Source: Thysanoteuthis rhombus (Eukaryota; Mollusca; Cephalopoda; Oegopsida; Thysanoteuthidae). From it: 64,000 bases of DNA. The stretch spans positions 26,195,387-26,259,386 of the forward strand of contig OY735201.1 in the NCBI GenBank assembly GCA_963457665.1, given 5' to 3'. The translations under genes were made by a program, and so were the position numbers. Under the pieces are notes generated by a model. The model was not told the DNA's origin. It saw nothing but the letters and a program-made list of their open reading frames with translations, and made no database searches. Positions 7,957 through 44,995 of this stretch are shown in pieces. The first letter of the stretch is position 1. The number at the start of each line of letters is the position of its first letter.

Positions 7957-8639
7957 TGTGGTATACATAGTCTGTGTCGATGGAGTAAATGAACAGAAAT
8001 ATAAAAAAAGGTACTCCTTATTGGTCTACAGAAATCTTTTGTGTTCAAATCTTTTGGAAAATTCATCAAATCAACTCTGGTGTTTGTTCCCCCTGAATGA
8101 ATAACTTGTCTAACTGAAAGATAAAGTAAAATCATCGAAAGAAATTATTTGATGACTGAATAATGATGTTAGGTTCTTATATGTCTACACATCTCTATTA
8201 GATACTATTTAGTCGCCCTGTCACTTCCAATTAAGTTGGAAAAAAAAACGATATTGGACCGAGAGAAAACGTGTGATGTCATGAAAGATACGATGTCATT
8301 GAAATTCGTGAGGTCATTAAAAGGCGTGAAGCGTTAGAAGGAAACATATTTTAATCAATATTTTTGTCAGTCACTAATAATTTCATGATTGAAGAAAGCT
8401 AAAAATTGCCCTGAAATTTAAAAAAATTTAATTCGATTTTAATGAAAATAGCACTTGCATATATTCTATATCGCAATATTATTCAGGTTGAGGAATCAAT
8501 CGAATAAAAAAAAAGACCATTTGCTATTTTACTCCCCCCTTTATGCTACTACAACCATAGATAGTGGATGGACACATTATATTTTGTGTTAATTCAGTTG
8601 AAACACAGAACTTAAACAAGAGATTGACCATCAAACTGA
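7957..8639. other. Unannotated AT-rich spacer
   Basis: Nothing recognised. A cluster of GATGTCA/GAGGTCA words at about 8272-8320 is too irregular to call a repeat. Confidence 0.35.
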
Positions 8640-8990
8640 TAACCATGTGATTTAGACAGGGATAATATGCTGACATCACATGGTGAGATCACAAGATAGC
8701 ACGGTACGTTTGGAATAAGAGGAGCAAGTGTCAGATATATAACAAAATCCGTTCAAAATCTCAATTAGCAATAGGTTGGTCCGAGTGCAGGAATGTTAGA
8801 CAACTGCTAGACGTTATGACTCAATGTAGATCCCCTGGGGGCCATATCCGAGACTGGTCGGAAAAAAAAAATGGTGTAACGAACAATTCAGAAAGAATTA
8901 GCTCCACAAAACGCATGACGGGAAGGTCAAGTGGATCTTGCAGAGGATATATGACTGACAAAAAGTTGTAAGAATCAGCTGATGATGATT
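8640..8990 (+). mobile_element. Decayed 3' end of an RTE-like LINE (copy 1)
   Basis: Shares the order of landmarks seen in the other copies: CATGGTGAGATCACAAGA, a degraded 'WAGH-ARM' region, a CCTGGGGGCCA block, then AAAGAAT-GCTCCACAA, GAGGATATATGACTGAC, and a terminal GATGATGAT. Translation is interrupted by frameshifts and stops. The LINE type is inferred from the best-preserved copy at 11.1-11.7 kb. Confidence 0.6.
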
Positions 8991-9079
8991 CTGATATAAA
9001 AGCAATGAATATAAAAGCAATGAAATGCGGATTTAACTAACCGTAATGGTTTTTTTAAGACTAATTTTCTGACCAATTC

Positions 9080-9420
9080 TCTCTCGCTGGCACTCATCTC
9101 TATTCAAAACTGTTAATCAAACATGTCACCAAAACCGTAAAAATAGTTTGTTCCAGTTTTCAAGAATGTTCAGCAGTTTGGCTGGTGATGCATGTGTTGC
9201 ACGTATTGGCTGCATCAATAGAGCTGATTGGTTAAAAATTTGAACATTTACTCATTATATCTTGGGAAAAACACGTTCTCTTCATTTTAACAGGTCCATT
9301 TATAATGTAGATCTATCCTAAATTGGTTCCTTGGTTCACGTATGTAACTTTTTAGTGACCCAAGCCCAACAAAAGGTAGAAAAGTAATGAATTCATTTCC
9401 ATCAAGACATGATGATAGCT
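9080..9420 (+). repeat. Dispersed repeat B, copy 2
   Basis: Has TTTGGCTGGTGATGCATGTG, then CATCAATAGAGCTGATTGG, and about 150 bp later TTTTTAGTGACCCAAGCCC followed by AACAAAAGGTAGAAAAGTAA. The same series is found at 3130-3560 and 46060-46420. Confidence 0.55.
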
Positions 9421-10674
9421 GACTTTAATTATGTAGCAGATTCTGATGAGTGGATAATCAGATTTATATTTATTGTATTTGATGATAGTATTTTTGAAAT
9501 AATGATTTCCCTCGGCTGCTCTCGGTTATGTATCAAAAATCGTCCCTCATAATTTCCTTTGAATATTTTTATTTTAGATTTCGGACCAGGAATTTCACTA
9601 TGAAGATAAGAATTCAGGTATAGAGCTGCCTAACTTCAATCGAATACAATAATTAAGATCTCTAAACCTCATATTATCGTCTGTAGACAAGCAATACTTC
9701 AATAGACTTTATTAATCAGAGTTGACATTTTTTCTATTACAAGAACAAGAATGATTCTTAAAAAAGGTGTGTGATTTGATAAATAAAATTGATAAGTGGT
9801 GTTTTACTGACTGACCTACACCGACAACTAATCCTTTTATTCTAATAAATAAATACATTTATTTTTCATATGATTTGCTATCAGTTAAGTCTACAATACA
9901 AATGCAGTAATCATCTTCAATTGGGATACAAGAATCAGTGGTGTTTGACACCTCAACAGGTTATATCGTCGGCAATTACATTTTGTGTAGTTTATTCGTA
10001 GTAGGAGTAGTATTAAGTTGTTTGATTTTTTTCGATCAAGCCATGTTATTATTAATTTGTGACGGGTTTTTCTGTTGTGTTTTGTATTAACATTCTACAT
10101 TCATGTGAAATTAGCTCCTTAGGATATGAAGACCAATTTTGAGTCTCGTTGGAGGCTATTTTATTTTTGATCACAAGTCTTAGTTAACTGTATTAGAAGG
10201 TAAAACTGACCTGTGCACTGTGATAATGAAAGTAGCAAGAATTAAATTGAAAAAAGTAGTAAAAAATGAATAATGAAATTGCCCCAGTTAATAAAACATC
10301 TAACAATGCTATACATGAACCAACAATATGGCGTCGAAAAAATCAGATAAGGAAGAAAGTAGCTGATATTTGAAATCGCCTCACAGATGGGTCTATGTGG
10401 CTTATGAATTGTCGATGTCAGACATGCTCTCAAGAATACAGACTTCCAATTCAAATCTTGTCCGATCTATATTGCTTACTAAATATAGATGAATAAACAG
10501 TAAACGAGATATATTTGGAAATTCATTCATTGTGCGGTAAATTCTACAAGTCTACGAACATTCTAATAGTATACTCGATTGTAAAATTGTAGCCCATCGG
10601 AATTGTTCCGTGTAAATCACCTAAATTTACATCCACATGAAACTAGCCCCCAAAAGATTAGGTCACAAGACCCA
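9421..10674. other. Unannotated AT-rich spacer
   Basis: No RNA gene, recognisable transposon or credible exon seen in 1.25 kb. Confidence 0.4.
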
Positions 10675-24775: not shown

Positions 24776-25245
24776 TTTATTACGGAGGTAGATAGATTTG
24801 CATCGGTATTGATTTAATTATAAAGTCAAGAAACAGAGATGAAGAGTAGTTGAGCAGACATGATTTTTTAAAGATGATTCAGAAATATGAGAACAAGAAA
24901 ATTGATGGGAAATTAATGAGAAAGCAGACAAAGAAAGATAGCAGAACCGAGAAAAGGGGAAATTCCTACTGAATGAATGAATGGATTGAATTTTGAAAGT
25001 TAAATCCATCAGGAAATAGGCGAAATTTTGCATGATTTCCATCGGGATATTCTGCAGAGTAAAATATTGGCTTTGATCATAGATTCCACATTAAATTGGC
25101 AATGATTATTCGATTTTTGAAAGATGTTTCCATATTGTCCAGGAGTACGATGCATTTCGATCTTCAATATTGGTTATTTCTATGAATCAGGCTTTCTAGT
25201 TGGATGTCGAAATAACAGTCAAATCGTTGTTGAATAAAGTAATGT
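24773..25245. other. Unannotated spacer
   Basis: No feature supported. Confidence 0.4.
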
Positions 25246-25341
25246 GTTATTATTATCATCATTATTATTATTATTATTATTATTATTGTTATTATCATTT
25301 TTATTATCATTATTATTATCATCATCATCAGCATCATCTTA

Positions 25342-25380
<39 letters not shown>
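25246..25380. repeat. (TTA)n tract, 3' junction of the complete LINE
   Basis: TTA/ATC-type trinucleotide repeats; the last 45 bp or so are pure TTA and meet the LINE 3' end (CCAAA in element orientation) at about 25380. It combines the (TAA)n tail of the element and the pre-existing target repeat. Confidence 0.95.
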
Positions 25381-25560
25381 TGGAATCTCACACCAGTTGC
25401 CTGGTGGTAACCGCTGGAGTTTGAGTGACAGCAAGTCTCCTCAAGTCTCCAGCCCTCCTCTCCTACTACTCATAGGTCGCAGTAATTCTACGATTTACAG
25501 TTTCACACCGGTTGCCCAGTGGTTATCGCTGAAGGCTGAGTGACAATAAGTCTCCTCAGG
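25380..25560 (-). repeat. Duplicated 65-bp block in the 3' UTR of the complete LINE
   Basis: Copies at 25380-25445 (terminal) and 25497-25560, reading TGAGGAGACTT ... GGTGTGA in element orientation, as in the truncated copy at 2121-2300. The hairpin between them is weakened by one base here (TCGCAG against CTACGA). Confidence 0.75.
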
Positions 25561-25623
25561 TCTTCAGCTAACGTCTCCTCCCTCTTTCGCATATCATGAC
25601 AGAGCTACTATTCGTTGCAGTCC

Positions 25624-28600
25624 TTATATCTCTAGCACCTTCCTCAGTATCCGTGCAGTTCCAAGTAGCGCTGTGGTCTGTACGGTCTCTATCCTTCCCC
25701 TAATCCCGATCTCCTCCAGTCTCTCCCTCAGCGTTTTGGGGACAGTTCCTAGTGCGCCCACTATGACCGGTACTACCCTGGTTTTCATGTTCCACATTTT
25801 CCTTAACTCCCTTGCTAGGTCCTGGTATTTTTCCCTTTTTTCACCCTCCTTCTTTTTTACTCTATGGTCTGCAGGTACAGCAACGTCTACTATTTGGCAG
25901 GCCTTCCTTTTTTTGTCTACTATTACTAAGTCCGGCCTTCTTGCCTGGATGAGGTGGTCAGTTTGGATGTCAAAGTCCCACAGTAGTTTGTGGTTGTCAT
26001 TCTCCAAAACTGCCTCTGGCTTGTGCTGATACCACTTTTCCCCATGGTTGAATCCCATTTGTTTACTTAGTTCCCAGTGTATCATCGTTGCTACTCTATC
26101 GTGTCTATGCTTATACTCCTTCTGGGCGAGCTGACTACATTCACTAGTTATGTGGTTTACTGTCTCATCTCTTTCACTGCACATGCGGCATTTGCTGTTT
26201 GTCTGTGTTCTGTCGATTTTTGCTTTTATGTAGTTTGTCCTTATGCTTTTATTTTGGGCTGCCATGATGAGCGATTCTGTTTCTCTCTTAAGGTTTCCCT
26301 TTCGTAACCACGTCCATGATTTCTCGTCTACTATATCTTTTATCTGTCTTTTAAACTCGCCGTACAATTTTTTCCCTTCCCACTTTTCTTTTCTAGTTTG
26401 CTGTACTGTTCCATTGTTTTCTACTTTATTGTTTGTTGCACTATCCCTCGCGCTCTTTATGATTTCTTCACTATTTGTTTGCACATATCTATCTAGGACT
26501 ACTTTAGCTCTCTGGACACAATCTTCTATGCTGATGAGCCCCCTACCACCTTCTTTTCTCTTAACGTATAGTCTATCTGTATCATCCCTAGGGTGCAATG
26601 CTTTATGCATCGTCATAAGTTTCCTTGTTCGCCTATCCATTGATTGGAGCTCTTCTTTTGTCCATCCTAGAAATGGTCCTGTATACCTAACTACTGACAC
26701 AGCCCAGGTGTTCATTCCTTTTATTAGATTTCTGCTATTTAATTTGGTTTCTAATATTTTCCTTATCCTTCTGAGGTATTCTCTCTTAATTTTCTCCTTC
26801 ATCTCTTCCCGTTTTATCGTGTCACATTCAAGGACACCTAGGTACTTGTATCGGTCTTGTGCAGTCAATGCCCTAATCTTGTTGTTGTCCGGAAGTTCAA
26901 TTCCCTCAGTCATTGTAAGCCTTCCTTTGTGCATCACCATGATTGCACATTTTTCTATCCCAAACTCCATTCCTATGTCCTCACTATATTCCCTTACTTC
27001 GTTGAACAGAGTCTCAAGCTCTCCCCTGTTTTTTGCAAACAATTTAATATCGTCCATGTACATTAAGTGGTTGACCTTTCCTTTTGTTTTAGAGAAGTGG
27101 TATCCTTTGCTGTTTTTCAGGATTCTGTTAAGCGGTATCATTGTTAGAACAAATAATAGAGGGGACAATGAGTCTCCTTGGAAGATTCCCCTTTTTATCC
27201 CTACCTCGGCTAGTTTGTCCCCTGCGGCTGTCAAATCTACTTTCCAGTCTTCCATCGAATTACCAATGAATTTAACCACCGGTTGGCTAATTTTGAACAT
27301 TCTAAGGCATTCGAGTATCCAGCTATGTGGAATCATATCGTATGCTTTTTTGTAATCTATCCATCCCATTGCGATATTCTTTCTCCTTTTCCTTACTTCT
27401 TTTAAGATCATCTGGTCTATGTAGAGTAAATCGTTTGCCCCTTTGGTTCCTATCCTACACCCTTTCTGTTCTTCTGGTAGTAGTCCCCTTCTATCCATTG
27501 ACATGTATATTCTCTCCGCTATTTGCCCGGTCAGGATTTTCCACATAAGTGGTAGGCACGTGATTGGTCTATAGTTGCTTGCTATGTTCCCCTTTCCCGG
27601 GTCTTTTAGGATGAGGGTGGTTCTGCCTTTAGTCATCCATTCTGGTGCTTTGCCTTCATTTAGACAATTTTGGAGTAAGTGAGTGAGTCTGCCGTGTAAC
27701 GTGGTGAATTTTTTGAACCAATACCCATGGATCCCGTCGGGCCCCGGTGCTTTCCAGTTGGCTACTTTCCTAAGAGTATGTTTCAATGTGTTTTCATTCA
27801 GTATTATTGGTTCCCCCTTGTCTATATCTTCTAGTTCTTTTCTCATGTTTCCTAACCATTGCGGTGTTACGTTGTGTCTTTTTGGGTGCCCCCATATGCT
27901 ATTCCAATAGTTCTTGGCCTCTGTGGCATCAGGTTTCATGTCCTGCCTTCTTTCCCCATTTAAATCTTGGTAAAACTTTTTCTCATTGTTTTGGAATGTG
28001 CGGTTTTGTGTGTATTGGGCCGTTCTTAGTCTGTATCTTTTTAGTCTTGCCTCTTTGGCTAGTCTTTTCTGGTGTAACTCTTCGACTACAGTTGCGATGC
28101 CCTTTTGCGTTACTTTGTATTTGTTATAAAGTCTTACTCGTGGTCTGTCTGTGTGTGGTGTATTTCTAAGTAGTACTTCATCTCTCTGTAGTTGGGATAT
28201 CTGCCTTTGTAACCTTCTCTCCCAGTTGGGTTTCCCTTCCCTATTATTGCTCAGGTTCCTATCTTGTGTTGTGAAGCTTTGTGCTACCATTTTTGCCCCA
28301 GCGTAAATTAGGTTGTTGAGTTCTAGGAGGGTGTTCGTTTCTATGTGCTGTAAGAGGCAGTTGACCTGTTCGGTCACTTCTCCAACTTTCTTTCTGTCTT
28401 TGTCTCTTAGGGAGGGGAGTGTTGTTTTCTCTCCTCGCATGATCTCTTTCAAAGCTTGTATTTTGGTTTTCTCTTCTGCTGTTGGTGCCTCGTCGTCACC
28501 CTCTGGTGCATAGTTTACTGTGGGGGTCTTATGGGGAATTCTTATAGTTTTGTTATTGGTACTAGTTGTGCTGGGGGGGCATTCTACAGATGTGTCACCT

Positions 28601-29229
28601 GAGTCTCTCTCTACATTAATGCGAATCTCTAGTAGTTCTGTCTCAGACAGCCATTTCCTCTTTTGGATTTGTTTTACTTGGTCAGCAAGGCGTTGGTTCG
28701 ATACTTCCACATCAGATTTTTCCCTCCAAATCTGGAGCATACGCTCCCTATAAGATCGCACTGAAGGCTTGCTTTTAAAGTAACAATACATAACTAATCT
28801 ATTCTCCTCCCTTGTCCATCTCTTTCTCTTTATAGCAGTCACTCCGTGAGGACCGCGCCTACCCTGGGTGTCATTAGTGGTATATGAGTCTTGGCCAACA
28901 GTAGCTATGTGACGACTGTGTCCCTCCTGAAGGCCATTAAGGGTACACGAGCCGGAGTTTTGGCCAGCAGTCACAGGATGACGACCGGGTCCCTCCTGGT
29001 GGCTAACAAGGGAACACCTGCCGGTTACGACACACAAATCTCGGATTTGTGCCCCGTTTTTTGCGGTAAAATGGTTAGGTTGTACTGTCATGATAGGGGT
29101 TTTTGGTTCTTTGAGGTAGCGCCAGACCTTGGTGGGTTGGTTAAGACCGATGTGGTTCAGAAATAACCGAAGAGCCCCACCAGCCCTTTTTGGTTCTTTT
29201 AAGGTAGCACCAGACCTTGGTGGGTTCAT
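25624..29229 (-). CDS. LINE polyprotein: Myb-like domain, reverse transcriptase, zinc knuckle and restriction-like endonuclease
   Basis: An uninterrupted ORF of 1,201 codons from the first in-frame ATG at 29229. The open frame reaches a TTG three codons earlier, with a stop just before it. A second possible start is the ATG at 29091 (codon 47), downstream of a repeated leader segment. Residues about 135-195 form a Myb/SANT-like DNA-binding region beginning KRKRWTREENR. The reverse transcriptase lies at about 530-790, with the catalytic Asp of WIDYKKAYD at 625, GIFQGDSLSP near 681-690, and YMDD at 724-727. A CCHC knuckle (C1014, C1017, H1026, C1031) precedes the endonuclease signature RPDLVIVD (PD at 1099-1100) and its partner Asp at 1115. 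This order is that of R2/R4-type proteins, which nick the target and prime cDNA synthesis there. All key residues are present, so activity is plausible. Assignment to R4/Dong rests on the TAA target and is inference. Confidence 0.93.
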   Translation of the reverse strand: MNPPRSGATLKEPKRAGGALRLFLNHIGLNQPTKVWRYLKEPKTPIMTVQPNHFTAKNGAQIRDLCVVTGRCSLVSHQEGPGRHPVTAGQNSGSCTLNGLQEGHSRHIATVGQDSYTTNDTQGRRGPHGVTAIKRKRWTREENRLVMYCYFKSKPSVRSYRERMLQIWREKSDVEVSNQRLADQVKQIQKRKWLSETELLEIRINVERDSGDTSVECPPSTTSTNNKTIRIPHKTPTVNYAPEGDDEAPTAEEKTKIQALKEIMRGEKTTLPSLRDKDRKKVGEVTEQVNCLLQHIETNTLLELNNLIYAGAKMVAQSFTTQDRNLSNNREGKPNWERRLQRQISQLQRDEVLLRNTPHTDRPRVRLYNKYKVTQKGIATVVEELHQKRLAKEARLKRYRLRTAQYTQNRTFQNNEKKFYQDLNGERRQDMKPDATEAKNYWNSIWGHPKRHNVTPQWLGNMRKELEDIDKGEPIILNENTLKHTLRKVANWKAPGPDGIHGYWFKKFTTLHGRLTHLLQNCLNEGKAPEWMTKGRTTLILKDPGKGNIASNYRPITCLPLMWKILTGQIAERIYMSMDRRGLLPEEQKGCRIGTKGANDLLYIDQMILKEVRKRRKNIAMGWIDYKKAYDMIPHSWILECLRMFKISQPVVKFIGNSMEDWKVDLTAAGDKLAEVGIKRGIFQGDSLSPLLFVLTMIPLNRILKNSKGYHFSKTKGKVNHLMYMDDIKLFAKNRGELETLFNEVREYSEDIGMEFGIEKCAIMVMHKGRLTMTEGIELPDNNKIRALTAQDRYKYLGVLECDTIKREEMKEKIKREYLRRIRKILETKLNSRNLIKGMNTWAVSVVRYTGPFLGWTKEELQSMDRRTRKLMTMHKALHPRDDTDRLYVKRKEGGRGLISIEDCVQRAKVVLDRYVQTNSEEIIKSARDSATNNKVENNGTVQQTRKEKWEGKKLYGEFKRQIKDIVDEKSWTWLRKGNLKRETESLIMAAQNKSIRTNYIKAKIDRTQTNSKCRMCSERDETVNHITSECSQLAQKEYKHRHDRVATMIHWELSKQMGFNHGEKWYQHKPEAVLENDNHKLLWDFDIQTDHLIQARRPDLVIVDKKRKACQIVDVAVPADHRVKKKEGEKREKYQDLARELRKMWNMKTRVVPVIVGALGTVPKTLRERLEEIGIRGRIETVQTTALLGTARILRKVLEI
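28890..29226 (-). repeat. Two tandem duplications at the 5' end of the LINE ORF
   Basis: Block 1: about 66 bp is repeated at 28890-28955 and 28956-29025, each containing GTCCCTCCTG (or CTGG) followed by AAGG/GGCTAAC and a CACCTGCC-like end in plus orientation. It encodes the paired SHQEGPGRHPVTAGQNS and LQEGHSRHIATVGQDS peptides. Block 2: GGTTCTTT-AGGTAGC-CCAGACCTTGGTGGG is repeated at 29098-29144 and 29187-29226. Remnants of both lie in the old copy near 44780-44960, so the duplications predate the divergence of these subfamilies. Confidence 0.75.
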
Positions 29230-29457
29230 TGTGGGCAATTAGCTCAGTGACACTCTCGGAGTCCCACCAGCTGTTACATGGTATAACCTTACATGGATAG
29301 GCCATTCTGCTGCACAGATATATCTATTTGGTGGTATGACCATCCCCTTCTACATTCAGACCTAACAATTAACACATTAAGCTTCATCTGGGTGAAATTA
29401 ACAACCTTGAAGGTCATACGTCTCCCTTAAATCTTCTAAGTCTTGACTTAGTATAAG
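29230..29457 (-). other. Unique LINE leader between the ORF and the tandem array
   Basis: A 228-bp segment not repeated elsewhere in the window. On the minus strand it would be the 5' UTR immediately downstream of the last 591-bp unit. No promoter element can be named with confidence. Confidence 0.6.
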
Positions 29458-32400
29458 TCTCGCAATCTGTGTTCTTTCCCAATGGTGGACTTCCCCCTAT
29501 ATCTACTTAGCAGTAAGGGGTCCTAACGGTCAGGGGTGGACAGACTCCATTCATTCATACTCGGGGGTAGCTAGGCATTGAACTATAAATTTTAAATTTA
29601 ATTCCACTTACCCACGTGCAGCTCCAAGAAACAACAGACCACTCTCAACTTTTTTTTTTCTTTTCATTAGGTAGAATTTGGCAGTGGACAATTCATCTAG
29701 GTGAACATTTCTCAGAATCGCAAAGAAAAACCATCTCAGAAGTAGAAATATCATCAATATGTCAAGAATAATCATTCTTAAAGCCTAAAGTAAAATATCT
29801 TTTAAACCTTCGAAAATCATCACTGGGTTCATTCATACGGTCCAAATGTTACAACTACCACTTATAATTATAATTAAAATTATTATAATTATTATTATTA
29901 TTATTATTATCATTATTATCATTATTGAGACAATATACATATAAGAATTTAGTCTGAGTTAGTTTTCAAAGTCAATCACCAGAAATCATTCAAAGAAAGA
30001 GATTTACCTTTTTGCCAAAAAATAAAATGCTTCTTCTACCGGCTATCTCGCAATCTGTGTTCTTTCCCAATGGTGGACTTCCCCCTATATCTACTTAGCA
30101 GTAAGGGGTCCTAACGGTCAGGGGTGGACAGACTCCATTCATTCATACTCGGGGGTAGCTAGGCATTGAACTATAAATTTTAAATTTAATTCCACTTACC
30201 CACGTGCAGCTCCAAGAAACAACAGACCACTCTCAACTTTTTTTTTTCTTTTCATTAGGTAGAATTTGGCAGTGGACAATTCATCTAGGTGAACATTTCT
30301 CAGAATCGCAAAGAAAAACCATCTCAGAAGTAGAAATATCATCAATATGTCAAGAATAATCATTCTTAAAGCCTAAAGTAAAATATCTTTTAAACCTTCG
30401 AAAATCATCACTGGGTTCATTCATACGGTCCAAATGTTACAACTACCACTTATAATTATAATTAAAATTATTATAATTATTATTATTATTATTATTATTA
30501 TCATTATTATCATTATTGAGACAATATACATATAAGAATTTAGTCTGAGTTAGTTTTCAAAGTCAATCACCAGAAATCATTCAAAGAAAGAGATTTACCT
30601 TTTTGCCAAAAAATAAAATGCTTCTTCTACCGGCTATCTCGCAATCTGTGTTCTTTCCCAATGGTGGACTTCCCCCTATATCTACTTAGCAGTAAGGGGT
30701 CCTAACGGTCAGGGGTGGACAGACTCCATTCATTCATACTCGGGGGTAGCTAGGCATTGAACTATAAATTTTAAATTTAATTCCACTTACCCACGTGCAG
30801 CTCCAAGAAACAACAGACCACTCTCAACTTTTTTTTTTCTTTTCATTAGGTAGAATTTGGCAGTGGACAATTCATCTAGGTGAACATTTCTCAGAATCGC
30901 AAAGAAAAACCATCTCAGAAGTAGAAATATCATCAATATGTCAAGAATAATCATTCTTAAAGCCTAAAGTAAAATATCTTTTAAACCTTCGAAAATCATC
31001 ACTGGGTTCATTCATACGGTCCAAATGTTACAACTACCACTTATAATTATAATTAAAATTATTATAATTATTATTATTATTATTATTATTATCATTATTA
31101 TCATTATTGAGACAATATACATATAAGAATTTAGTCTGAGTTAGTTTTCAAAGTCAATCACCAGAAATCATTCAAAGAAAGAGATTTACCTTTTTGCCAA
31201 AAAATAAAATGCTTCTTCTACCGGCTATCTCGCAATCTGTGTTCTTTCCCAATGGTGGACTTCCCCCTATATCTACTTAGCAGTAAGGGGTCCTAACGGT
31301 CAGGGGTGGACAGACTCCATTCATTCATACTCGGGGGTAGCTAGGCATTGAACTATAAATTTTAAATTTAATTCCACTTACCCACGTGCAGCTCCAAGAA
31401 ACAACAGACCACTCTCAACTTTTTTTTTTCTTTTCATTAGGTAGAATTTGGCAGTGGACAATTCATCTAGGTGAACATTTCTCAGAATCGCAAAGAAAAA
31501 CCATCTCAGAAGTAGAAATATCATCAATATGTCAAGAATAATCATTCTTAAAGCCTAAAGTAAAATATCTTTTAAACCTTCGAAAATCATCACTGGGTTC
31601 ATTCATACGGTCCAAATGTTACAACTACCACTTATAATTATAATTAAAATTATTATAATTATTATTATTATTATTATTATTATCATTATTATCATTATTG
31701 AGACAATATACATATAAGAATTTAGTCTGAGTTAGTTTTCAAAGTCAATCACCAGAAATCATTCAAAGAAAGAGATTTACCTTTTTGCCAAAAAATAAAA
31801 TGCTTCTTCTACCGGCTATCTCGCAATCTGTGTTCTTTCCCAATGGTGGACTTCCCCCTATATCTACTTAGCAGTAAGGGGTCCTAACGGTCAGGGGTGG
31901 ACAGACTCCATTCATTCATACTCGGGGGTAGCTAGGCATTGAACTATAAATTTTAAATTTAATTCCACTTACCCACGTGCAGCTCCAAGAAACAACAGAC
32001 CACTCTCAACTTTTTTTTTTCTTTTCATTAGGTAGAATTTGGCAGTGGACAATTCATCTAGGTGAACATTTCTCAGAATCGCAAAGAAAAACCATCTCAG
32101 AAGTAGAAATATCATCAATATGTCAAGAATAATCATTCTTAAAGCCTAAAGTAAAATATCTTTTAAACCTTCGAAAATCATCACTGGGTTCATTCATACG
32201 GTCCAAATGTTACAACTACCACTTATAATTATAATTAAAATTATTATAATTATTATTATTATTATTATTATTATCATTATTATCATTATTGAGACAATAT
32301 ACATATAAGAATTTAGTCTGAGTTAGTTTTCAAAGTCAATCACCAGAAATCATTCAAAGAAAGAGATTTACCTTTTTGCCAAAAAATAAAATGCTTCTTC

Positions 32401-35400
32401 TACCGGCTATCTCGCAATCTGTGTTCTTTCCCAATGGTGGACTTCCCCCTATATCTACTTAGCAGTAAGGGGTCCTAACGGTCAGGGGTGGACAGACTCC
32501 ATTCATTCATACTCGGGGGTAGCTAGGCATTGAACTATAAATTTTAAATTTAATTCCACTTACCCACGTGCAGCTCCAAGAAACAACAGACCACTCTCAA
32601 CTTTTTTTTTTCTTTTCATTAGGTAGAATTTGGCAGTGGACAATTCATCTAGGTGAACATTTCTCAGAATCGCAAAGAAAAACCATCTCAGAAGTAGAAA
32701 TATCATCAATATGTCAAGAATAATCATTCTTAAAGCCTAAAGTAAAATATCTTTTAAACCTTCGAAAATCATCACTGGGTTCATTCATACGGTCCAAATG
32801 TTACAACTACCACTTATAATTATAATTAAAATTATTATAATTATTATTATTATTATTATTATTATCATTATTATCATTATTGAGACAATATACATATAAG
32901 AATTTAGTCTGAGTTAGTTTTCAAAGTCAATCACCAGAAATCATTCAAAGAAAGAGATTTACCTTTTTGCCAAAAAATAAAATGCTTCTTCTACCGGCTA
33001 TCTCGCAATCTGTGTTCTTTCCCAATGGTGGACTTCCCCCTATATCTACTTAGCAGTAAGGGGTCCTAACGGTCAGGGGTGGACAGACTCCATTCATTCA
33101 TACTCGGGGGTAGCTAGGCATTGAACTATAAATTTTAAATTTAATTCCACTTACCCACGTGCAGCTCCAAGAAACAACAGACCACTCTCAACTTTTTTTT
33201 TTCTTTTCATTAGGTAGAATTTGGCAGTGGACAATTCATCTAGGTGAACATTTCTCAGAATCGCAAAGAAAAACCATCTCAGAAGTAGAAATATCATCAA
33301 TATGTCAAGAATAATCATTCTTAAAGCCTAAAGTAAAATATCTTTTAAACCTTCGAAAATCATCACTGGGTTCATTCATACGGTCCAAATGTTACAACTA
33401 CCACTTATAATTATAATTAAAATTATTATAATTATTATTATTATTATTATTATTATCATTATTATCATTATTGAGACAATATACATATAAGAATTTAGTC
33501 TGAGTTAGTTTTCAAAGTCAATCACCAGAAATCATTCAAAGAAAGAGATTTACCTTTTTGCCAAAAAATAAAATGCTTCTTCTACCGGCTATCTCGCAAT
33601 CTGTGTTCTTTCCCAATGGTGGACTTCCCCCTATATCTACTTAGCAGTAAGGGGTCCTAACGGTCAGGGGTGGACAGACTCCATTCATTCATACTCGGGG
33701 GTAGCTAGGCATTGAACTATAAATTTTAAATTTAATTCCACTTACCCACGTGCAGCTCCAAGAAACAACAGACCACTCTCAACTTTTTTTTTTCTTTTCA
33801 TTAGGTAGAATTTGGCAGTGGACAATTCATCTAGGTGAACATTTCTCAGAATCGCAAAGAAAAACCATCTCAGAAGTAGAAATATCATCAATATGTCAAG
33901 AATAATCATTCTTAAAGCCTAAAGTAAAATATCTTTTAAACCTTCGAAAATCATCACTGGGTTCATTCATACGGTCCAAATGTTACAACTACCACTTATA
34001 ATTATAATTAAAATTATTATAATTATTATTATTATTATTATTATCATTATTATCATTATTGAGACAATATACATATAAGAATTTAGTCTGAGTTAGTTTT
34101 CAAAGTCAATCACCAGAAATCATTCAAAGAAAGAGATTTACCTTTTTGCCAAAAAATAAAATGCTTCTTCTACCGGCTATCTCGCAATCTGTGTTCTTTC
34201 CCAATGGTGGACTTCCCCCTATATCTACTTAGCAGTAAGGGGTCCTAACGGTCAGGGGTGGACAGACTCCATTCATTCATACTCGGGGGTAGCTAGGCAT
34301 TGAACTATAAATTTTAAATTTAATTCCACTTACCCACGTGCAGCTCCAAGAAACAACAGACCACTCTCAACTTTTTTTTTTCTTTTCATTAGGTAGAATT
34401 TGGCAGTGGACAATTCATCTAGGTGAACATTTCTCAGAATCGCAAAGAAAAACCATCTCAGAAGTAGAAATATCATCAATATGTCAAGAATAATCATTCT
34501 TAAAGCCTAAAGTAAAATATCTTTTAAACCTTCGAAAATCATCACTGGGTTCATTCATACGGTCCAAATGTTACAACTACCACTTATAATTATAATTAAA
34601 ATTATTATAATTATTATTATTATTATTATTATTATCATTATTATCATTATTGAGACAATATACATATAAGAATTTAGTCTGAGTTAGTTTTCAAAGTCAA
34701 TCACCAGAAATCATTCAAAGAAAGAGATTTACCTTTTTGCCAAAAAATAAAATGCTTCTTCTACCGGCTATCTCGCAATCTGTGTTCTTTCCCAATGGTG
34801 GACTTCCCCCTATATCTACTTAGCAGTAAGGGGTCCTAACGGTCAGGGGTGGACAGACTCCATTCATTCATACTCGGGGGTAGCTAGGCATTGAACTATA
34901 AATTTTAAATTTAATTCCACTTACCCACGTGCAGCTCCAAGAAACAACAGACCACTCTCAACTTTTTTTTTTCTTTTCATTAGGTAGAATTTGGCAGTGG
35001 ACAATTCATCTAGGTGAACATTTCTCAGAATCGCAAAGAAAAACCATCTCAGAAGTAGAAATATCATCAATATGTCAAGAATAATCATTCTTAAAGCCTA
35101 AAGTAAAATATCTTTTAAACCTTCGAAAATCATCACTGGGTTCATTCATACGGTCCAAATGTTACAACTACCACTTATAATTATAATTAAAATTATTATA
35201 ATTATTATTATTATTATTATTATTATCATTATTATCATTATTGAGACAATATACATATAAGAATTTAGTCTGAGTTAGTTTTCAAAGTCAATCACCAGAA
35301 ATCATTCAAAGAAAGAGATTTACCTTTTTGCCAAAAAATAAAATGCTTCTTCTACCGGCTATCTCGCAATCTGTGTTCTTTCCCAATGGTGGACTTCCCC

Positions 35401-38400
35401 CTATATCTACTTAGCAGTAAGGGGTCCTAACGGTCAGGGGTGGACAGACTCCATTCATTCATACTCGGGGGTAGCTAGGCATTGAACTATAAATTTTAAA
35501 TTTAATTCCACTTACCCACGTGCAGCTCCAAGAAACAACAGACCACTCTCAACTTTTTTTTTTCTTTTCATTAGGTAGAATTTGGCAGTGGACAATTCAT
35601 CTAGGTGAACATTTCTCAGAATCGCAAAGAAAAACCATCTCAGAAGTAGAAATATCATCAATATGTCAAGAATAATCATTCTTAAAGCCTAAAGTAAAAT
35701 ATCTTTTAAACCTTCGAAAATCATCACTGGGTTCATTCATACGGTCCAAATGTTACAACTACCACTTATAATTATAATTAAAATTATTATAATTATTATT
35801 ATTATTATTATTATTATCATTATTATCATTATTGAGACAATATACATATAAGAATTTAGTCTGAGTTAGTTTTCAAAGTCAATCACCAGAAATCATTCAA
35901 AGAAAGAGATTTACCTTTTTGCCAAAAAATAAAATGCTTCTTCTACCGGCTATCTCGCAATCTGTGTTCTTTCCCAATGGTGGACTTCCCCCTATATCTA
36001 CTTAGCAGTAAGGGGTCCTAACGGTCAGGGGTGGACAGACTCCATTCATTCATACTCGGGGGTAGCTAGGCATTGAACTATAAATTTTAAATTTAATTCC
36101 ACTTACCCACGTGCAGCTCCAAGAAACAACAGACCACTCTCAACTTTTTTTTTTCTTTTCATTAGGTAGAATTTGGCAGTGGACAATTCATCTAGGTGAA
36201 CATTTCTCAGAATCGCAAAGAAAAACCATCTCAGAAGTAGAAATATCATCAATATGTCAAGAATAATCATTCTTAAAGCCTAAAGTAAAATATCTTTTAA
36301 ACCTTCGAAAATCATCACTGGGTTCATTCATACGGTCCAAATGTTACAACTACCACTTATAATTATAATTAAAATTATTATAATTATTATTATTATTATT
36401 ATTATTATCATTATTATCATTATTGAGACAATATACATATAAGAATTTAGTCTGAGTTAGTTTTCAAAGTCAATCACCAGAAATCATTCAAAGAAAGAGA
36501 TTTACCTTTTTGCCAAAAAATAAAATGCTTCTTCTACCGGCTATCTCGCAATCTGTGTTCTTTCCCAATGGTGGACTTCCCCCTATATCTACTTAGCAGT
36601 AAGGGGTCCTAACGGTCAGGGGTGGACAGACTCCATTCATTCATACTCGGGGGTAGCTAGGCATTGAACTATAAATTTTAAATTTAATTCCACTTACCCA
36701 CGTGCAGCTCCAAGAAACAACAGACCACTCTCAACTTTTTTTTTTCTTTTCATTAGGTAGAATTTGGCAGTGGACAATTCATCTAGGTGAACATTTCTCA
36801 GAATCGCAAAGAAAAACCATCTCAGAAGTAGAAATATCATCAATATGTCAAGAATAATCATTCTTAAAGCCTAAAGTAAAATATCTTTTAAACCTTCGAA
36901 AATCATCACTGGGTTCATTCATACGGTCCAAATGTTACAACTACCACTTATAATTATAATTAAAATTATTATAATTATTATTATTATTATTATTATCATT
37001 ATTATCATTATTGAGACAATATACATATAAGAATTTAGTCTGAGTTAGTTTTCAAAGTCAATCACCAGAAATCATTCAAAGAAAGAGATTTACCTTTTTG
37101 CCAAAAAATAAAATGCTTCTTCTACCGGCTATCTCGCAATCTGTGTTCTTTCCCAATGGTGGACTTCCCCCTATATCTACTTAGCAGTAAGGGGTCCTAA
37201 CGGTCAGGGGTGGACAGACTCCATTCATTCATACTCGGGGGTAGCTAGGCATTGAACTATAAATTTTAAATTTAATTCCACTTACCCACGTGCAGCTCCA
37301 AGAAACAACAGACCACTCTCAACTTTTTTTTTTCTTTTCATTAGGTAGAATTTGGCAGTGGACAATTCATCTAGGTGAACATTTCTCAGAATCGCAAAGA
37401 AAAACCATCTCAGAAGTAGAAATATCATCAATATGTCAAGAATAATCATTCTTAAAGCCTAAAGTAAAATATCTTTTAAACCTTCGAAAATCATCACTGG
37501 GTTCATTCATACGGTCCAAATGTTACAACTACCACTTATAATTATAATTAAAATTATTATAATTATTATTATTATTATTATTATTATCATTATTATCATT
37601 ATTGAGACAATATACATATAAGAATTTAGTCTGAGTTAGTTTTCAAAGTCAATCACCAGAAATCATTCAAAGAAAGAGATTTACCTTTTTGCCAAAAAAT
37701 AAAATGCTTCTTCTACCGGCTATCTCGCAATCTGTGTTCTTTCCCAATGGTGGACTTCCCCCTATATCTACTTAGCAGTAAGGGGTCCTAACGGTCAGGG
37801 GTGGACAGACTCCATTCATTCATACTCGGGGGTAGCTAGGCATTGAACTATAAATTTTAAATTTAATTCCACTTACCCACGTGCAGCTCCAAGAAACAAC
37901 AGACCACTCTCAACTTTTTTTTTTCTTTTCATTAGGTAGAATTTGGCAGTGGACAATTCATCTAGGTGAACATTTCTCAGAATCGCAAAGAAAAACCATC
38001 TCAGAAGTAGAAATATCATCAATATGTCAAGAATAATCATTCTTAAAGCCTAAAGTAAAATATCTTTTAAACCTTCGAAAATCATCACTGGGTTCATTCA
38101 TACGGTCCAAATGTTACAACTACCACTTATAATTATAATTAAAATTATTATAATTATTATTATTATTATTATTATTATCATTATTATCATTATTGAGACA
38201 ATATACATATAAGAATTTAGTCTGAGTTAGTTTTCAAAGTCAATCACCAGAAATCATTCAAAGAAAGAGATTTACCTTTTTGCCAAAAAATAAAATGCTT
38301 CTTCTACCGGCTATCTCGCAATCTGTGTTCTTTCCCAATGGTGGACTTCCCCCTATATCTACTTAGCAGTAAGGGGTCCTAACGGTCAGGGGTGGACAGA

Positions 38401-41400
38401 CTCCATTCATTCATACTCGGGGGTAGCTAGGCATTGAACTATAAATTTTAAATTTAATTCCACTTACCCACGTGCAGCTCCAAGAAACAACAGACCACTC
38501 TCAACTTTTTTTTTTCTTTTCATTAGGTAGAATTTGGCAGTGGACAATTCATCTAGGTGAACATTTCTCAGAATCGCAAAGAAAAACCATCTCAGAAGTA
38601 GAAATATCATCAATATGTCAAGAATAATCATTCTTAAAGCCTAAAGTAAAATATCTTTTAAACCTTCGAAAATCATCACTGGGTTCATTCATACGGTCCA
38701 AATGTTACAACTACCACTTATAATTATAATTAAAATTATTATAATTATTATTATTATTATTATTATTATCATTATTATCATTATTGAGACAATATACATA
38801 TAAGAATTTAGTCTGAGTTAGTTTTCAAAGTCAATCACCAGAAATCATTCAAAGAAAGAGATTTACCTTTTTGCCAAAAAATAAAATGCTTCTTCTACCG
38901 GCTATCTCGCAATCTGTGTTCTTTCCCAATGGTGGACTTCCCCCTATATCTACTTAGCAGTAAGGGGTCCTAACGGTCAGGGGTGGACAGACTCCATTCA
39001 TTCATACTCGGGGGTAGCTAGGCATTGAACTATAAATTTTAAATTTAATTCCACTTACCCACGTGCAGCTCCAAGAAACAACAGACCACTCTCAACTTTT
39101 TTTTTTCTTTTCATTAGGTAGAATTTGGCAGTGGACAATTCATCTAGGTGAACATTTCTCAGAATCGCAAAGAAAAACCATCTCAGAAGTAGAAATATCA
39201 TCAATATGTCAAGAATAATCATTCTTAAAGCCTAAAGTAAAATATCTTTTAAACCTTCGAAAATCATCACTGGGTTCATTCATACGGTCCAAATGTTACA
39301 ACTACCACTTATAATTATAATTAAAATTATTATAATTATTATTATTATTATTATTATTATCATTATTATCATTATTGAGACAATATACATATAAGAATTT
39401 AGTCTGAGTTAGTTTTCAAAGTCAATCACCAGAAATCATTCAAAGAAAGAGATTTACCTTTTTGCCAAAAAATAAAATGCTTCTTCTACCGGCTATCTCG
39501 CAATCTGTGTTCTTTCCCAATGGTGGACTTCCCCCTATATCTACTTAGCAGTAAGGGGTCCTAACGGTCAGGGGTGGACAGACTCCATTCATTCATACTC
39601 GGGGGTAGCTAGGCATTGAACTATAAATTTTAAATTTAATTCCACTTACCCACGTGCAGCTCCAAGAAACAACAGACCACTCTCAACTTTTTTTTTTCTT
39701 TTCATTAGGTAGAATTTGGCAGTGGACAATTCATCTAGGTGAACATTTCTCAGAATCGCAAAGAAAAACCATCTCAGAAGTAGAAATATCATCAATATGT
39801 CAAGAATAATCATTCTTAAAGCCTAAAGTAAAATATCTTTTAAACCTTCGAAAATCATCACTGGGTTCATTCATACGGTCCAAATGTTACAACTACCACT
39901 TATAATTATAATTAAAATTATTATAATTATTATTATTATTATTATTATTATCATTATTATCATTATTGAGACAATATACATATAAGAATTTAGTCTGAGT
40001 TAGTTTTCAAAGTCAATCACCAGAAATCATTCAAAGAAAGAGATTTACCTTTTTGCCAAAAAATAAAATGCTTCTTCTACCGGCTATCTCGCAATCTGTG
40101 TTCTTTCCCAATGGTGGACTTCCCCCTATATCTACTTAGCAGTAAGGGGTCCTAACGGTCAGGGGTGGACAGACTCCATTCATTCATACTCGGGGGTAGC
40201 TAGGCATTGAACTATAAATTTTAAATTTAATTCCACTTACCCACGTGCAGCTCCAAGAAACAACAGACCACTCTCAACTTTTTTTTTTCTTTTCATTAGG
40301 TAGAATTTGGCAGTGGACAATTCATCTAGGTGAACATTTCTCAGAATCGCAAAGAAAAACCATCTCAGAAGTAGAAATATCATCAATATGTCAAGAATAA
40401 TCATTCTTAAAGCCTAAAGTAAAATATCTTTTAAACCTTCGAAAATCATCACTGGGTTCATTCATACGGTCCAAATGTTACAACTACCACTTATAATTAT
40501 AATTAAAATTATTATAATTATTATTATTATTATTATTATTATCATTATTATCATTATTGAGACAATATACATATAAGAATTTAGTCTGAGTTAGTTTTCA
40601 AAGTCAATCACCAGAAATCATTCAAAGAAAGAGATTTACCTTTTTGCCAAAAAATAAAATGCTTCTTCTACCGGCTATCTCGCAATCTGTGTTCTTTCCC
40701 AATGGTGGACTTCCCCCTATATCTACTTAGCAGTAAGGGGTCCTAACGGTCAGGGGTGGACAGACTCCATTCATTCATACTCGGGGGTAGCTAGGCATTG
40801 AACTATAAATTTTAAATTTAATTCCACTTACCCACGTGCAGCTCCAAGAAACAACAGACCACTCTCAACTTTTTTTTTTCTTTTCATTAGGTAGAATTTG
40901 GCAGTGGACAATTCATCTAGGTGAACATTTCTCAGAATCGCAAAGAAAAACCATCTCAGAAGTAGAAATATCATCAATATGTCAAGAATAATCATTCTTA
41001 AAGCCTAAAGTAAAATATCTTTTAAACCTTCGAAAATCATCACTGGGTTCATTCATACGGTCCAAATGTTACAACTACCACTTATAATTATAATTAAAAT
41101 TATTATAATTATTATTATTATTATTATTATCATTATTATCATTATTGAGACAATATACATATAAGAATTTAGTCTGAGTTAGTTTTCAAAGTCAATCACC
41201 AGAAATCATTCAAAGAAAGAGATTTACCTTTTTGCCAAAAAATAAAATGCTTCTTCTACCGGCTATCTCGCAATCTGTGTTCTTTCCCAATGGTGGACTT
41301 CCCCCTATATCTACTTAGCAGTAAGGGGTCCTAACGGTCAGGGGTGGACAGACTCCATTCATTCATACTCGGGGGTAGCTAGGCATTGAACTATAAATTT

Positions 41401-42420
41401 TAAATTTAATTCCACTTACCCACGTGCAGCTCCAAGAAACAACAGACCACTCTCAACTTTTTTTTTTCTTTTCATTAGGTAGAATTTGGCAGTGGACAAT
41501 TCATCTAGGTGAACATTTCTCAGAATCGCAAAGAAAAACCATCTCAGAAGTAGAAATATCATCAATATGTCAAGAATAATCATTCTTAAAGCCTAAAGTA
41601 AAATATCTTTTAAACCTTCGAAAATCATCACTGGGTTCATTCATACGGTCCAAATGTTACAACTACCACTTATAATTATAATTAAAATTATTATAATTAT
41701 TATTATTATTATTATTATTATCATTATTATCATTATTGAGACAATATACATATAAGAATTTAGTCTGAGTTAGTTTTCAAAGTCAATCACCAGAAATCAT
41801 TCAAAGAAAGAGATTTACCTTTTTGCCAAAAAATAAAATGCTTCTTCTACCGGCTATCTCGCAATCTGTGTTCTTTCCCAATGGTGGACTTCCCCCTATA
41901 TCTACTTAGCAGTAAGGGGTCCTAACGGTCAGGGGTGGACAGACTCCATTCATTCATACTCGGGGGTAGCTAGGCATTGAACTATAAATTTTAAATTTAA
42001 TTCCACTTACCCACGTGCAGCTCCAAGAAACAACAGACCACTCTCAACTTTTTTTTTTCTTTTCATTAGGTAGAATTTGGCAGTGGACAATTCATCTAGG
42101 TGAACATTTCTCAGAATCGCAAAGAAAAACCATCTCAGAAGTAGAAATATCATCAATATGTCAAGAATAATCATTCTTAAAGCCTAAAGTAAAATATCTT
42201 TTAAACCTTCGAAAATCATCACTGGGTTCATTCATACGGTCCAAATGTTACAACTACCACTTATAATTATAATTAAAATTATTATAATTATTATTATTAT
42301 TATTATTATTATCATTATTATCATTATTGAGACAATATACATATAAGAATTTAGTCTGAGTTAGTTTTCAAAGTCAATCACCAGAAATCATTCAAAGAAA
42401 GAGATTTACCTTTTTGCCAA
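29458..42420 (-). repeat. Tandem array of about 22 near-identical 588/591-bp units, candidate LINE 5' monomers
   Basis: Unit starts (TCTCGCAATC) fall at 29458, 30046, 30637, 31228, 31819, 32410, 33001, 33592, 34180, 34771, 35362, 35953, 36544, 37132, 37723, 38314, 38905, 39496, 40087, 40678, 41266 and 41857. The last unit stops at 42420, 27 bp short. Units look identical except that four lack one TTA triplet. Each unit contains, on the plus strand, ACTTCCCCCTATATC, CCCACGTGCAGC (an E-box CACGTG), a long pyrimidine tract ending CATTAG|GTAGAA, and a (TTA)n run about 430 bp into the unit. No unit has an ORF over 60 codons. The array starts at the LINE leader and ends sharply at a TTA tract, so it may be the tandem-monomer 5' UTR of the element. 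An independent satellite or an assembly expansion are alternatives. The strand given is that of the adjoining LINE. Confidence 0.97.
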
Positions 42421-42530
42421 TTATTATTATTATTATTATCATTATAATTATAATAACTAAACAACGACGATTATTACTATTAATATTAATATCATTATAG
42501 TTATCATTTGCATTATCATACCAATGCCCG
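42421..42530. repeat. Degenerate TTA-rich tract, distal junction of the array and tail of the older LINE
   Basis: Begins with pure TTA repeats directly after the truncated last array unit and decays into ATT/ATC-rich sequence that abuts the 3' end of the older LINE copy. In element orientation it is both the TAA tail of the older copy and the target flank of the younger insertion. Confidence 0.8.
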
Positions 42531-44995
42531 TCGGTTGTCGCTGTCGACTAGGTGACAGTAAGTCCGGAGTCTTTCTCCCAACACCCTCACAGTGTACAGT
42601 AGTGTTCTCCTCAATATTTGTGCAGTCTTAAGAAATGCAATAGTTTCTATTTTCGTAGTCTCTATTTTCACAATGATTTCCAGCTCTCCAAAACCTATCA
42701 CTAGTTCTGAGGTTTACAGTCTTGTATTCCTCTCCACATCGGTGGCATTTGCTGTTAAGTTAGGTTCCATCAATATTTGTCTTGAAATAGTTCGTCCTCA
42801 TACATTTGTTTTGTGCTAACATGATAAGCAATTCCATTTCTTACCTCAAAACTTCTTAAAGTTCATCACCTTTCGTCTTTGATGAGTTGTACCTTTTTTC
42901 CCCCGTATATTTTTTCTCTTTTCATTTCTTATTTCTTATTGTTGGCTTTGCTGCTACATTGTTTGTTACTTTTTGTCCTTTGTTGCTCTGTTTCGGGAGC
43001 TTCATATAATGTCTCTGCTGCCTGCTTGCTCATACTTTCCTCCTCACATAGATTCAATCAGCATCATCCCTTGGGTGCAGAGCCTTGTGCATCGTCATAA
43101 ACTTCTTTGGTCGCCGGTCCATTCATTTGGGTTCTTTCATTTTCTATCCAATCAATTAGCCTGTGTATCTCACTCACAATGTTTTTTCCCTTTTATCAAA
43201 GTTCTGCTATTTAGCTTGGCATCCAATATTTTTCTTATTATTCTAATGTTTTTTTCCATTTCATCCCTTTTCCGAGTCACATTGGAGACATCCCAGTTAT
43301 CTATATCGGTCCTGTCCTTTTTATAATTATCTTTTCAAAATTTGCTCCAGTAGCTGTCAAGTGTACTTTGGAGTTCTCATAGAGTTGGCTGTGAATCCCA
43401 TCACTAGTTGTTGCTCCTGAATATCATGAAGCATTTGAATGTCCGGCTATGTGGGATAATGTCATGTGATTTTTGTACGGTCATTCCATCTCACGGAACC
43501 ATTTCTCTCTTTTTTCTCCCATACTTCTTTCACAATCATCTGGTCAATGTAGATTAAGTTATTGCCCTCTCGGTTCCTTTACTGCATTTTCTTCCCCTTC
43601 TGATAGTAGTATTCTTTGCGTGGAAACATATATTCTCTCTGGTATCTGCCCGGTCAAGGCTTCCCACATTAGTGGTAGGTATTGATCTGTAATTGCATGT
43701 CCGTTCATATGAGGGTTGTTCTGCCTGTCATTCAGTTTGGGACGTTGCCTTCAAGGCAAGTGTGGATTAGGCTGTCATGTAAAATGGTGAATTCCTTAAA
43801 CCAATATACATTGATCAGGTCTTGGTGCATTCCAGTTAGCTTTCCTTCAAGGACTTTTTCCAACGTGATTCCATCCGATACTGATTGTCCTCCTTTATAC
43901 TTGACTTCTTTTTTTTTCCAATATCAGGTACATGTATGTATGGTTCCATAAGTTCTTTTTCCATTCAGACCATGATGAAATATCCTTTACTTAATTTGGA
44001 AAGAGCAGGTTAGTATGTATTGGTCTGTCCTTTAGCCATATCTCTTCATCCCTAATTTGTTTTGATGCATTTCTTCAACTGCAAAGGGTGCATCTTCTCG
44101 TCTCATCTCGTATTTGCTCAATAGTCTTGCTCATAGTCTGCACATGTACAATGTATGTTTCAGTAATACTCCATCTTTCTGTAATGAGAAGATCTGCGGG
44201 TGTTCTTGATGTCTGAGGTTCTTCCCTGAACGTTACAATTTTTGTGCTGGTGTACATCAGGATGTTAAACTCCGTTATATTATTGGATTTGTATTTTGGT
44301 TTTCACCTAATGGGGGGTCCCTCTCTGTTTTAGAAAGTGCCAGTCTTTGAGTATTGTATTGTTCTTTGTCTAAATCTTTTTAGTCCTGCTTCTTTGGCTA
44401 GTTTTCTTTGGTGCATTTTTCAACTGCAGAGGATACATCTTCCGTGTTATCTTGTAATTGTCCCTGTCTGAATGTGTGCCTTATAAGACTTGTATTTTTG
44501 TCAGGTTTTTCTTCATTGTTTGAATTTGATTCTACTTTGCCGTTTATCATGTCAGTTGTGTTTGGGTCTTCTTGTCCGGGTGATCCAAATTCTTCTTTCT
44601 TTCTAAAAGTCTTCAATATATTTCAAAATTTGTTTCGCTTGGTTATGATGACGCTACAGTCGATTCTATATATTGTTCAATGTAGCGCCTTTCAGACAGT
44701 CGGTTTCTAAAGTAGCAACACTTCACTAATGTATTGCCTTCTTTAATCCATTTTCTCCTTATTCTACCGATCAGCGACGGCAGTTCCCTCCTGAAGGCTA
44801 TTAATGGGGCACAAGATGATGACAGGGTCCCTCTTGGTAGCTAACAAAGGAGTACCTGTCAGTCATGACGTACAAGTCCTGAATTTGTATCCAATATGTT
44901 TTGGTAATCTCTATTTATATGCTTTGTGGTGCTGAAAGATAGCACCAAGCCTTAGTAAATTGTTTGAATCATATGGGGTGCACAGTATTGTGAAG
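42531..44995 (-). pseudogene. Old decayed relative of the RLE LINE, nearly full length, internally deleted
   Basis: Aligns collinearly by eye with the complete element from its 3' end (42590-42690 against 25610-25730) to its 5' end (44775-44960 against 28900-29130). Two deletions are clear. One between about 42690 and 42700 removes the equivalent of 25740-26130, which holds the endonuclease core. Another near 43325 removes 26865-27190, which holds the YMDD box. A segment around 44050-44100 is duplicated at 44390-44440, indicating an internal duplication of about 340 bp. Many frameshifts remain. It is therefore a dead element, much older than its neighbour. Confidence 0.85.

Follow-up and report, generated by a model that had tools for sequence, protein, structure and literature searches.

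A 591-bp unit, reiterated about 22 times next to a LINE of the squid Thysanoteuthis rhombus, is the 5' monomer of this TAA-targeting element

The analyzed stretch of DNA, in the following called the window, comprises 64,000 nt of contig OY735201.1 of the squid Thysanoteuthis rhombus and does not contain any N letters. It harbors a long interspersed nuclear element (LINE) on the minus strand, which appears to be of the type with a restriction-like endonuclease (RLE) and is preceded at its 5' side by a long head-to-tail array of a 591-bp repeat. This repeat is the monomer of the 5' untranslated region (UTR) of the LINE, and the LINE inserts into (TAA)n. The monomers in the window have probably been multiplied in place, after insertion of the element. 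The features at the locus are the following, with the basis of each in parentheses (ORF, open reading frame; RT, reverse transcriptase):

25247..25380, no strand: TTA repeats adjoining the element on its 3' side (sequence read)
25381..29457, minus strand: LINE leader, ORF and 3' UTR, 4077 bp (copy alignments)
25624..29238, minus strand: open ORF of 1204 amino acids with an RT, a CCHC-like region and a C-terminal RLE-like region (profile and PDB matches)
29239..29457, minus strand: unique leader between array and ORF (copy comparison)
29458..42420, minus strand: 5' UTR monomer array of 21 complete 588/591-bp units and one truncated unit (unit alignment)
29458..36543, minus strand: possible first 12-unit block, the 588/591 pattern of which is seen again in units 13-22, 36544-42420 (shuffle P = 0.033, weak)
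30450..30517, minus strand: sample of the internal (TAA)n tract, which has a counterpart in all units and resembles the target of the element (sequence read)
42420..42451, no strand: TTA repeats adjoining the element on its 5' side (sequence read)
42698..44413, minus strand: remnants of an older relative LINE, four pieces of 66-77% identity, 5' of the element and in the same orientation (alignment)

The array has a length of 12,963 bp, which corresponds to 21.93 units. The 22 unit starts lie between 29458 and 41857 and are spaced by 591 bp (17 cases) or 588 bp (four cases). All 17 complete 591-bp units are free of any difference, and the four 588-bp units share one common sequence, namely the 591-bp unit minus one TTA of a tract of about 65 bp of TTA repeats that is present inside every unit. 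The array joins the leader of the LINE at 29457/29458. At its far end unit 22 is incomplete, it breaks off at 42419/42420, with TTA repeats beyond. The 588-bp units occupy positions 1, 8, 13, and 20, a pattern that fits a 12-unit block copied once, and it suggests that units 13-22 might be a block duplication of the first 12 units. A firm 12-unit higher-order repeat was set aside because of the weak signal.

The window LINE is 99.0-99.7% identical to 20 copies taken at 10 kb in the main alignments, with a less similar leader piece (96.4-97.0%) in the copies L021, L025, L026, and L028. The ORF as called starts with TTG, and an ATG is present three codons further in. A stop-free frame of at least 1204 codons is found in 10 of the 20 other loci. 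N letters occur in five of the 20, and therefore some of the apparent 3' truncations among them may be N stretches. The 1204-aa protein matches RVT_1 (E 6.9e-28), while the match to zf-RVT is sub-threshold (23.7 bits versus a cut-off of 27.5 bits). In the PDB it is matched best by R2 proteins (E 2.1e-24), and the stretch 1098-1181 has a second, weak alignment to the R2 C-terminal region containing the PD motif. The window leader carries a 5-bp deletion at 29279 in comparison with the 19 copies that cover this site. A leader segment of about 88 bp is repeated once more in the same four copies named above, at LINE positions from about 232, and the window has two related 40-bp copies at that place (29100-29226). 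The L009 copy is followed just downstream by a second copy of the 3' half of the LINE in inverted orientation (8033-9912 in locus sense, 96.2% identity).

The assembly to which the window belongs (2.73 Gb, 514 contigs) was searched with the unit, and the best 39 of 651 candidates were scored, 20 of which were read at 10 kb and the remaining 19 at 0.9-2.2 kb. In all 39 scored places this LINE follows on the 3' side of the unit, with both in the same orientation, and in 38 of them the unit joins at leader position 1 (L024 has a 4-base gap). An internal deletion in L020 fuses unit position 143 to LINE position 1461. Genome-wide, with at most two mismatches, there are 701 matches to the leader, 461 to the leader-unit junction, 278 to the 3' end of the young-type unit, 120 to the unit-unit junction, and 124 to the unit 5' end, whereas reversed-pattern controls for all five counts yielded 0 matches. 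On contigs C1 to C9 (to 6.4 Mb), 95 exact leader matches could be compared, and an exact junction was present in 84 of them. The remaining 11, L040 among them, were all read, and they run on into the unit or a diverged variant of it, which in L051 extends for only about 17 bases before TAA repeats follow.

Both ends of the element are associated with TAA repeats. At the 3' end, the LINE abuts TAATAAT/TAA repeats in the window and, among the 20 loci read at 10 kb, in all 15 in which the 3' end is covered. For the 5' edge, a repeat of at least three TAA was sought within 57 bp strictly upstream of the first unit match in the 39 places and the window. It was found in 25 of these 40 copies, and in 18 of the 27 copies with an edge away from the unit's own tract. 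Of 778 background windows, 6 had such a repeat in that orientation and 12 in either orientation. The other 15 of the 40 edges include that of L038, which has a flank that reads N and was scored as a miss. Thirteen of the 40 edges lie in or near the TAA tract of the unit, where alignment across a TAA repeat blurs the edge; this location would fit microhomology joining. In 14 of the 40 copies the 3' tail of a copy or a relative (77-99% identical) is found at most 150 bp upstream in the same orientation, and therefore the TAA repeat of the tail appears to be a target for the next copy. Head-to-tail chains, with a new copy at most about 60 bp past the 3' end of another copy or of a relative in the same orientation, were observed in L015, L016, L024, L026, L027, and L028, and further chains of the same kind in L030, L032, L036, L041, L044, and L061.

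These results bear on an earlier reading of the window, made from its letters alone, which had proposed that the array is the 5' UTR of the LINE with a layout like that of L1 monomers. This central claim of the original prediction holds, as units were found upstream of other copies of the LINE in the same orientation and in variable number in all 39 scored places. Leader copies with another upstream sequence, which would have spoken against it, did not turn up among the 95 exact leaders, as 84 have the exact junction and 11 the unit or a diverged variant. The limits that had been given for the array, the junction at 29457/29458 and the end at 42420 on TTA, were both exact, the LINE indeed stops at 25380 with TTA repeats adjoining, and the 5'-most monomer is cut as described. 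The argument drawn from the far end, namely that its position on the target is non-trivial, is borne out by the excess over the background (25/40 versus 6/778). The TTA tract of about 65 bp inside each unit went unmentioned in that reading.

The 5' ends of the copies fall at many points within the unit, and the number of units differs between copies. Most copies have no unit-unit junction, and thus about one unit or less, tens have up to two units, and a few have three or four. The placement of 105 of the 120 unit-unit junctions assigned 21 to the window, 15 to one locus on contig C5, and 69 to 59 other loci, of which 50, eight, and one contain one, two, and three junctions, respectively. In L061, the largest ordinary copy, which lies beside the 3' tail of another LINE, three full units are accompanied by a partial one. 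At least 50 of the 64 unit 5' ends listed outside the two giant loci run on into another unit, and among the other 14 listed, some, such as L020 and L034, do have a neighboring unit. Genome-wide, the numbers of unit 5' ends and unit-unit junctions are similar (124 versus 120), which disfavors 5' starts fixed at the unit boundary, although the place-by-place count of 50 in 64 permits no stronger statement.

The locus on C5 (about 2.5286-2.5662 Mb, about 38 kb) contains a copy of the window's LINE that is followed by 16 outer-unit 3' ends. It was read as L049 (C5:2526500-2534500) and L050 (C5:2562000-2570000), and part of it reads N. In both the outer unit adjoining the LINE and the next one, a 171-bp piece of the unit is present about 14-15 times, and the outer spacings are mostly about 591 plus multiples of 171. 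The nested 171-bp junction has 133 matches, on one strand only, and all 100 among the matches listed are at the C5 locus. In addition, about 744 bp of the host flank are repeated within the array, near its far end, as part of a tandem duplication with an offset of 3358 bp that is identical over the comparable 1.6 kb or so. The nested repeat and the copy of the host flank inside the array therefore indicate that the C5 array, as assembled, grew in the DNA after insertion.

The units were compared without the window rows, the TAA tract, gap-rich columns, and the rows L035_2 and L040_1, the starts of which are unaligned. Fifteen substitution sites were found. Neighboring units of one element have their variants in common, with 5 differences in 14 pairs versus 22.8 expected, and the lowest value of 20,000 shuffles was 7. 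A 16-bp deletion was observed only in distal units. Diverged units are under-represented, because the places had been picked by similarity to the window unit. The diverged variants L052-L060 retain a block around ...TGTTTCTTGGAGCTGCACGTGGGTAAGTGGAATTAAATTTA, which by its conservation is a candidate for a functional core. Seven of these nine variants contain an extra segment upstream of the leader (around AATAA..CTCC..CCGAGATAAGAGGTGT) that is missing from the young unit; it is partial in L056, and L055 has none of it.

How did the window acquire its array? The LINE body of 4.08 kb has five private substitutions and one 5-bp deletion in comparison with 20 copies, whereas the array, which is three times as long (12.96 kb), has no unit-specific substitution. 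Because the body has private changes and the array none, this suggests that the array is younger than the insertion, provided that the changes mostly postdate it. The window also has 21 unit-unit junctions, versus at most three in the other placed loci apart from C5. We therefore regard it as probable that the unit belongs, as 5' module, to a young RLE-type LINE with (TAA)n as its target, and that the window monomers multiplied in place to about 22 after insertion. In this scenario transcription would start, or reverse transcription would stop, at varied points in the unit, so that copies with varied unit number arise. The parallel with L1 makes it most likely that the promoter resides in the unit, and reiterated units would let copies survive the loss of the 5' end. 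The window copy would at first have been inserted normally, and its monomers would then have been multiplied as DNA, through unequal exchange or through slippage during replication or repair, to about 22 identical units. One late duplication of a 12-unit block was perhaps part of this growth.

The array could also be viewed as an unrelated satellite, beside or inside which the LINE has landed by chance, and it is indeed long, homogeneous, and tandem. However, the unit is tied to the LINE by one junction and in one orientation in all 39 places that were scored and in the exact leaders compared, 95 in number, which rules this out for practical purposes. Generation of the whole 22-unit array by one retrotransposition event, from a long RNA that started in a distal unit or by re-annealing of the RT between identical units, seems unlikely. 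It would agree with the truncated unit on TTA at which the array ends, as in many ordinary copies, and with the occurrence of ordinary copies that have two to four mutually similar units. However, the fall-off in unit number is steep, a constant rate estimated from 55 placed non-giant loci gives about 2e-17 for 21 junctions, and no array near the window length exists among the placed junctions, save the nested C5 locus. The roughly 17-kb LINE of the original prediction is unsupported as a mobile unit: with 105 of the 120 junctions placed, the non-giant loci have at most three, and the sole comparable array bears signs of growth in place.

It is rather improbable that the assembler has over-expanded a shorter real array and that the true unit number is smaller. 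The identity of the units and the possible 12-unit block repeat would be in line with such an artifact, as would the N stretches in 10 of the 62 loci read. However, the window is devoid of N, an array of 13 kb is generally within the reach of long reads, and a second giant array exists that is structurally different. A bolder possibility, which we consider improbable, is that an R2/R4-type LINE has swapped the 5' ribozyme of its clade for L1-style promoter monomers that are regenerated in each lineage by RT re-annealing between identical units. The rare giant arrays would then be promoters with many starts and, by virtue of the TAA tract in all units, landing pads for additional copies, and the 17-kb LINE would be a working element.

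Several points weigh against insertion of a monomer-bearing LINE followed by multiplication in place. The window body may have acquired some of its private substitutions before the insertion, and the assembly shows growth in place for the C5 array, from where it is extended to the window. The exact C5 duplication might itself be an assembly error, and part of the locus is N. The 588/591 block pattern is a weak signal, and the promoter role is a putative one, proposed from the L1 parallel. With regard to the unit itself, the junction pattern covers just 12 unit bases, a junction at two mismatches is lacking for 240 of the 701 leader matches and 11 junction-less leaders were read, and the 39 scored places, being the best of 651, are biased to complete and young units. 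Lastly, the 15 unplaced of the 120 junctions may leave room for a third, diverged array.

L1 is the best-known case of tandem 5' monomers, and tandem 5' modules are also present in Tx1 of Xenopus and TRE5-A of Dictyostelium. Mouse L1 has an apurinic/apyrimidinic (APE) endonuclease and is not known to have a fixed target repeat. The mouse families L1Md A, Tf, and Gf resemble the squid LINE in having tandem 5' units in variable number and a unique tether before the ORF, but their monomers are about 200 bp long and they have two ORFs, in contrast to 591 bp and one ORF in the squid LINE. The minimal mouse promoter with significant activity consists of two monomers, the youngest subfamilies average three to four, and seven loci have more than 10 intact monomers (PMC9022269). 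Promoter activity has been measured for the mouse monomers (PMC9022269), whereas the squid unit is known from its sequence, and a promoter function can be proposed for it only by analogy. One mouse promoter of 50 monomers has been ascribed to unequal crossing-over (PMC6454616). The promoter repeats of rat L1 are similar in size to the squid unit, about 600 bp, with at most two copies per promoter (PMC6454616); rat L1 differs in belonging to the L1 clade, and the discussion section of that paper does not mention giant arrays. In plants, Ogre LTR (long terminal repeat) retrotransposons contain short tandem arrays, a fraction of which expanded into long arrays or satellites (PMC7004042). This resembles the squid case in that tandem repeats within a retroelement grow into long arrays, although Ogre is an LTR element of plants with repeats in its 3' UTR.

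The R4/Dong clade comprises relatives of R2, and TAA repeats have been found at the 5' junction of Dong (PMC3774820). In Octopus vulgaris, Dong-R4 elements account for 1129 of 2533 recently active LINE insertions, more than any other group (PMC13282606). The target and the protein relatives of the squid LINE agree with an R4/Dong affinity, and the LINE is a candidate member of the clade. A self-cleaving ribozyme is located at the 5' end of both R4 and Dong (PMC3774820), and in this respect the squid LINE may differ. An Rfam scan of window positions 25100-31300 gave no match to a ribozyme like that of hepatitis delta virus at E<=5, with a method unchecked on a known R4/Dong ribozyme, and retrieved just three chance matches resembling small nucleolar RNAs (E 4.1, 22.2 bits versus a gathering score of 50). 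Our own ribozyme topology scan of two units plus leader, likewise unchecked on a known R4/Dong ribozyme, had 0 hits, and 20 shuffled controls had 0 hits (19 times) or one.

None of the literature matches listed, which leave subscription papers mostly uncovered, describes tandem 5' monomers for an RLE-type LINE, or for R4/Dong. The words "monomer" and "tandem" are absent from the main text of the octopus LINE paper (PMC9115989). Therefore, while the layout is known from L1, the RLE-type host, the TAA tract in the unit, and the two giant arrays seem to be new. The presence of this layout in an RLE-type LINE that targets TAA suggests an independent origin of reiterated 5' modules as an answer to the loss of 5' ends. 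Because hundreds of copies and two giant arrays are present in one genome, the gain of monomers by retrotransposition can be separated from array growth in place, and it seems that a LINE 5' UTR can seed satellite-like arrays, one of them nested. The window contains, in addition, a 5'-truncated copy of the array-bearing LINE on the plus strand (1580-2298, 97.2% identity), which ends at an AAT repeat (2299-2353).

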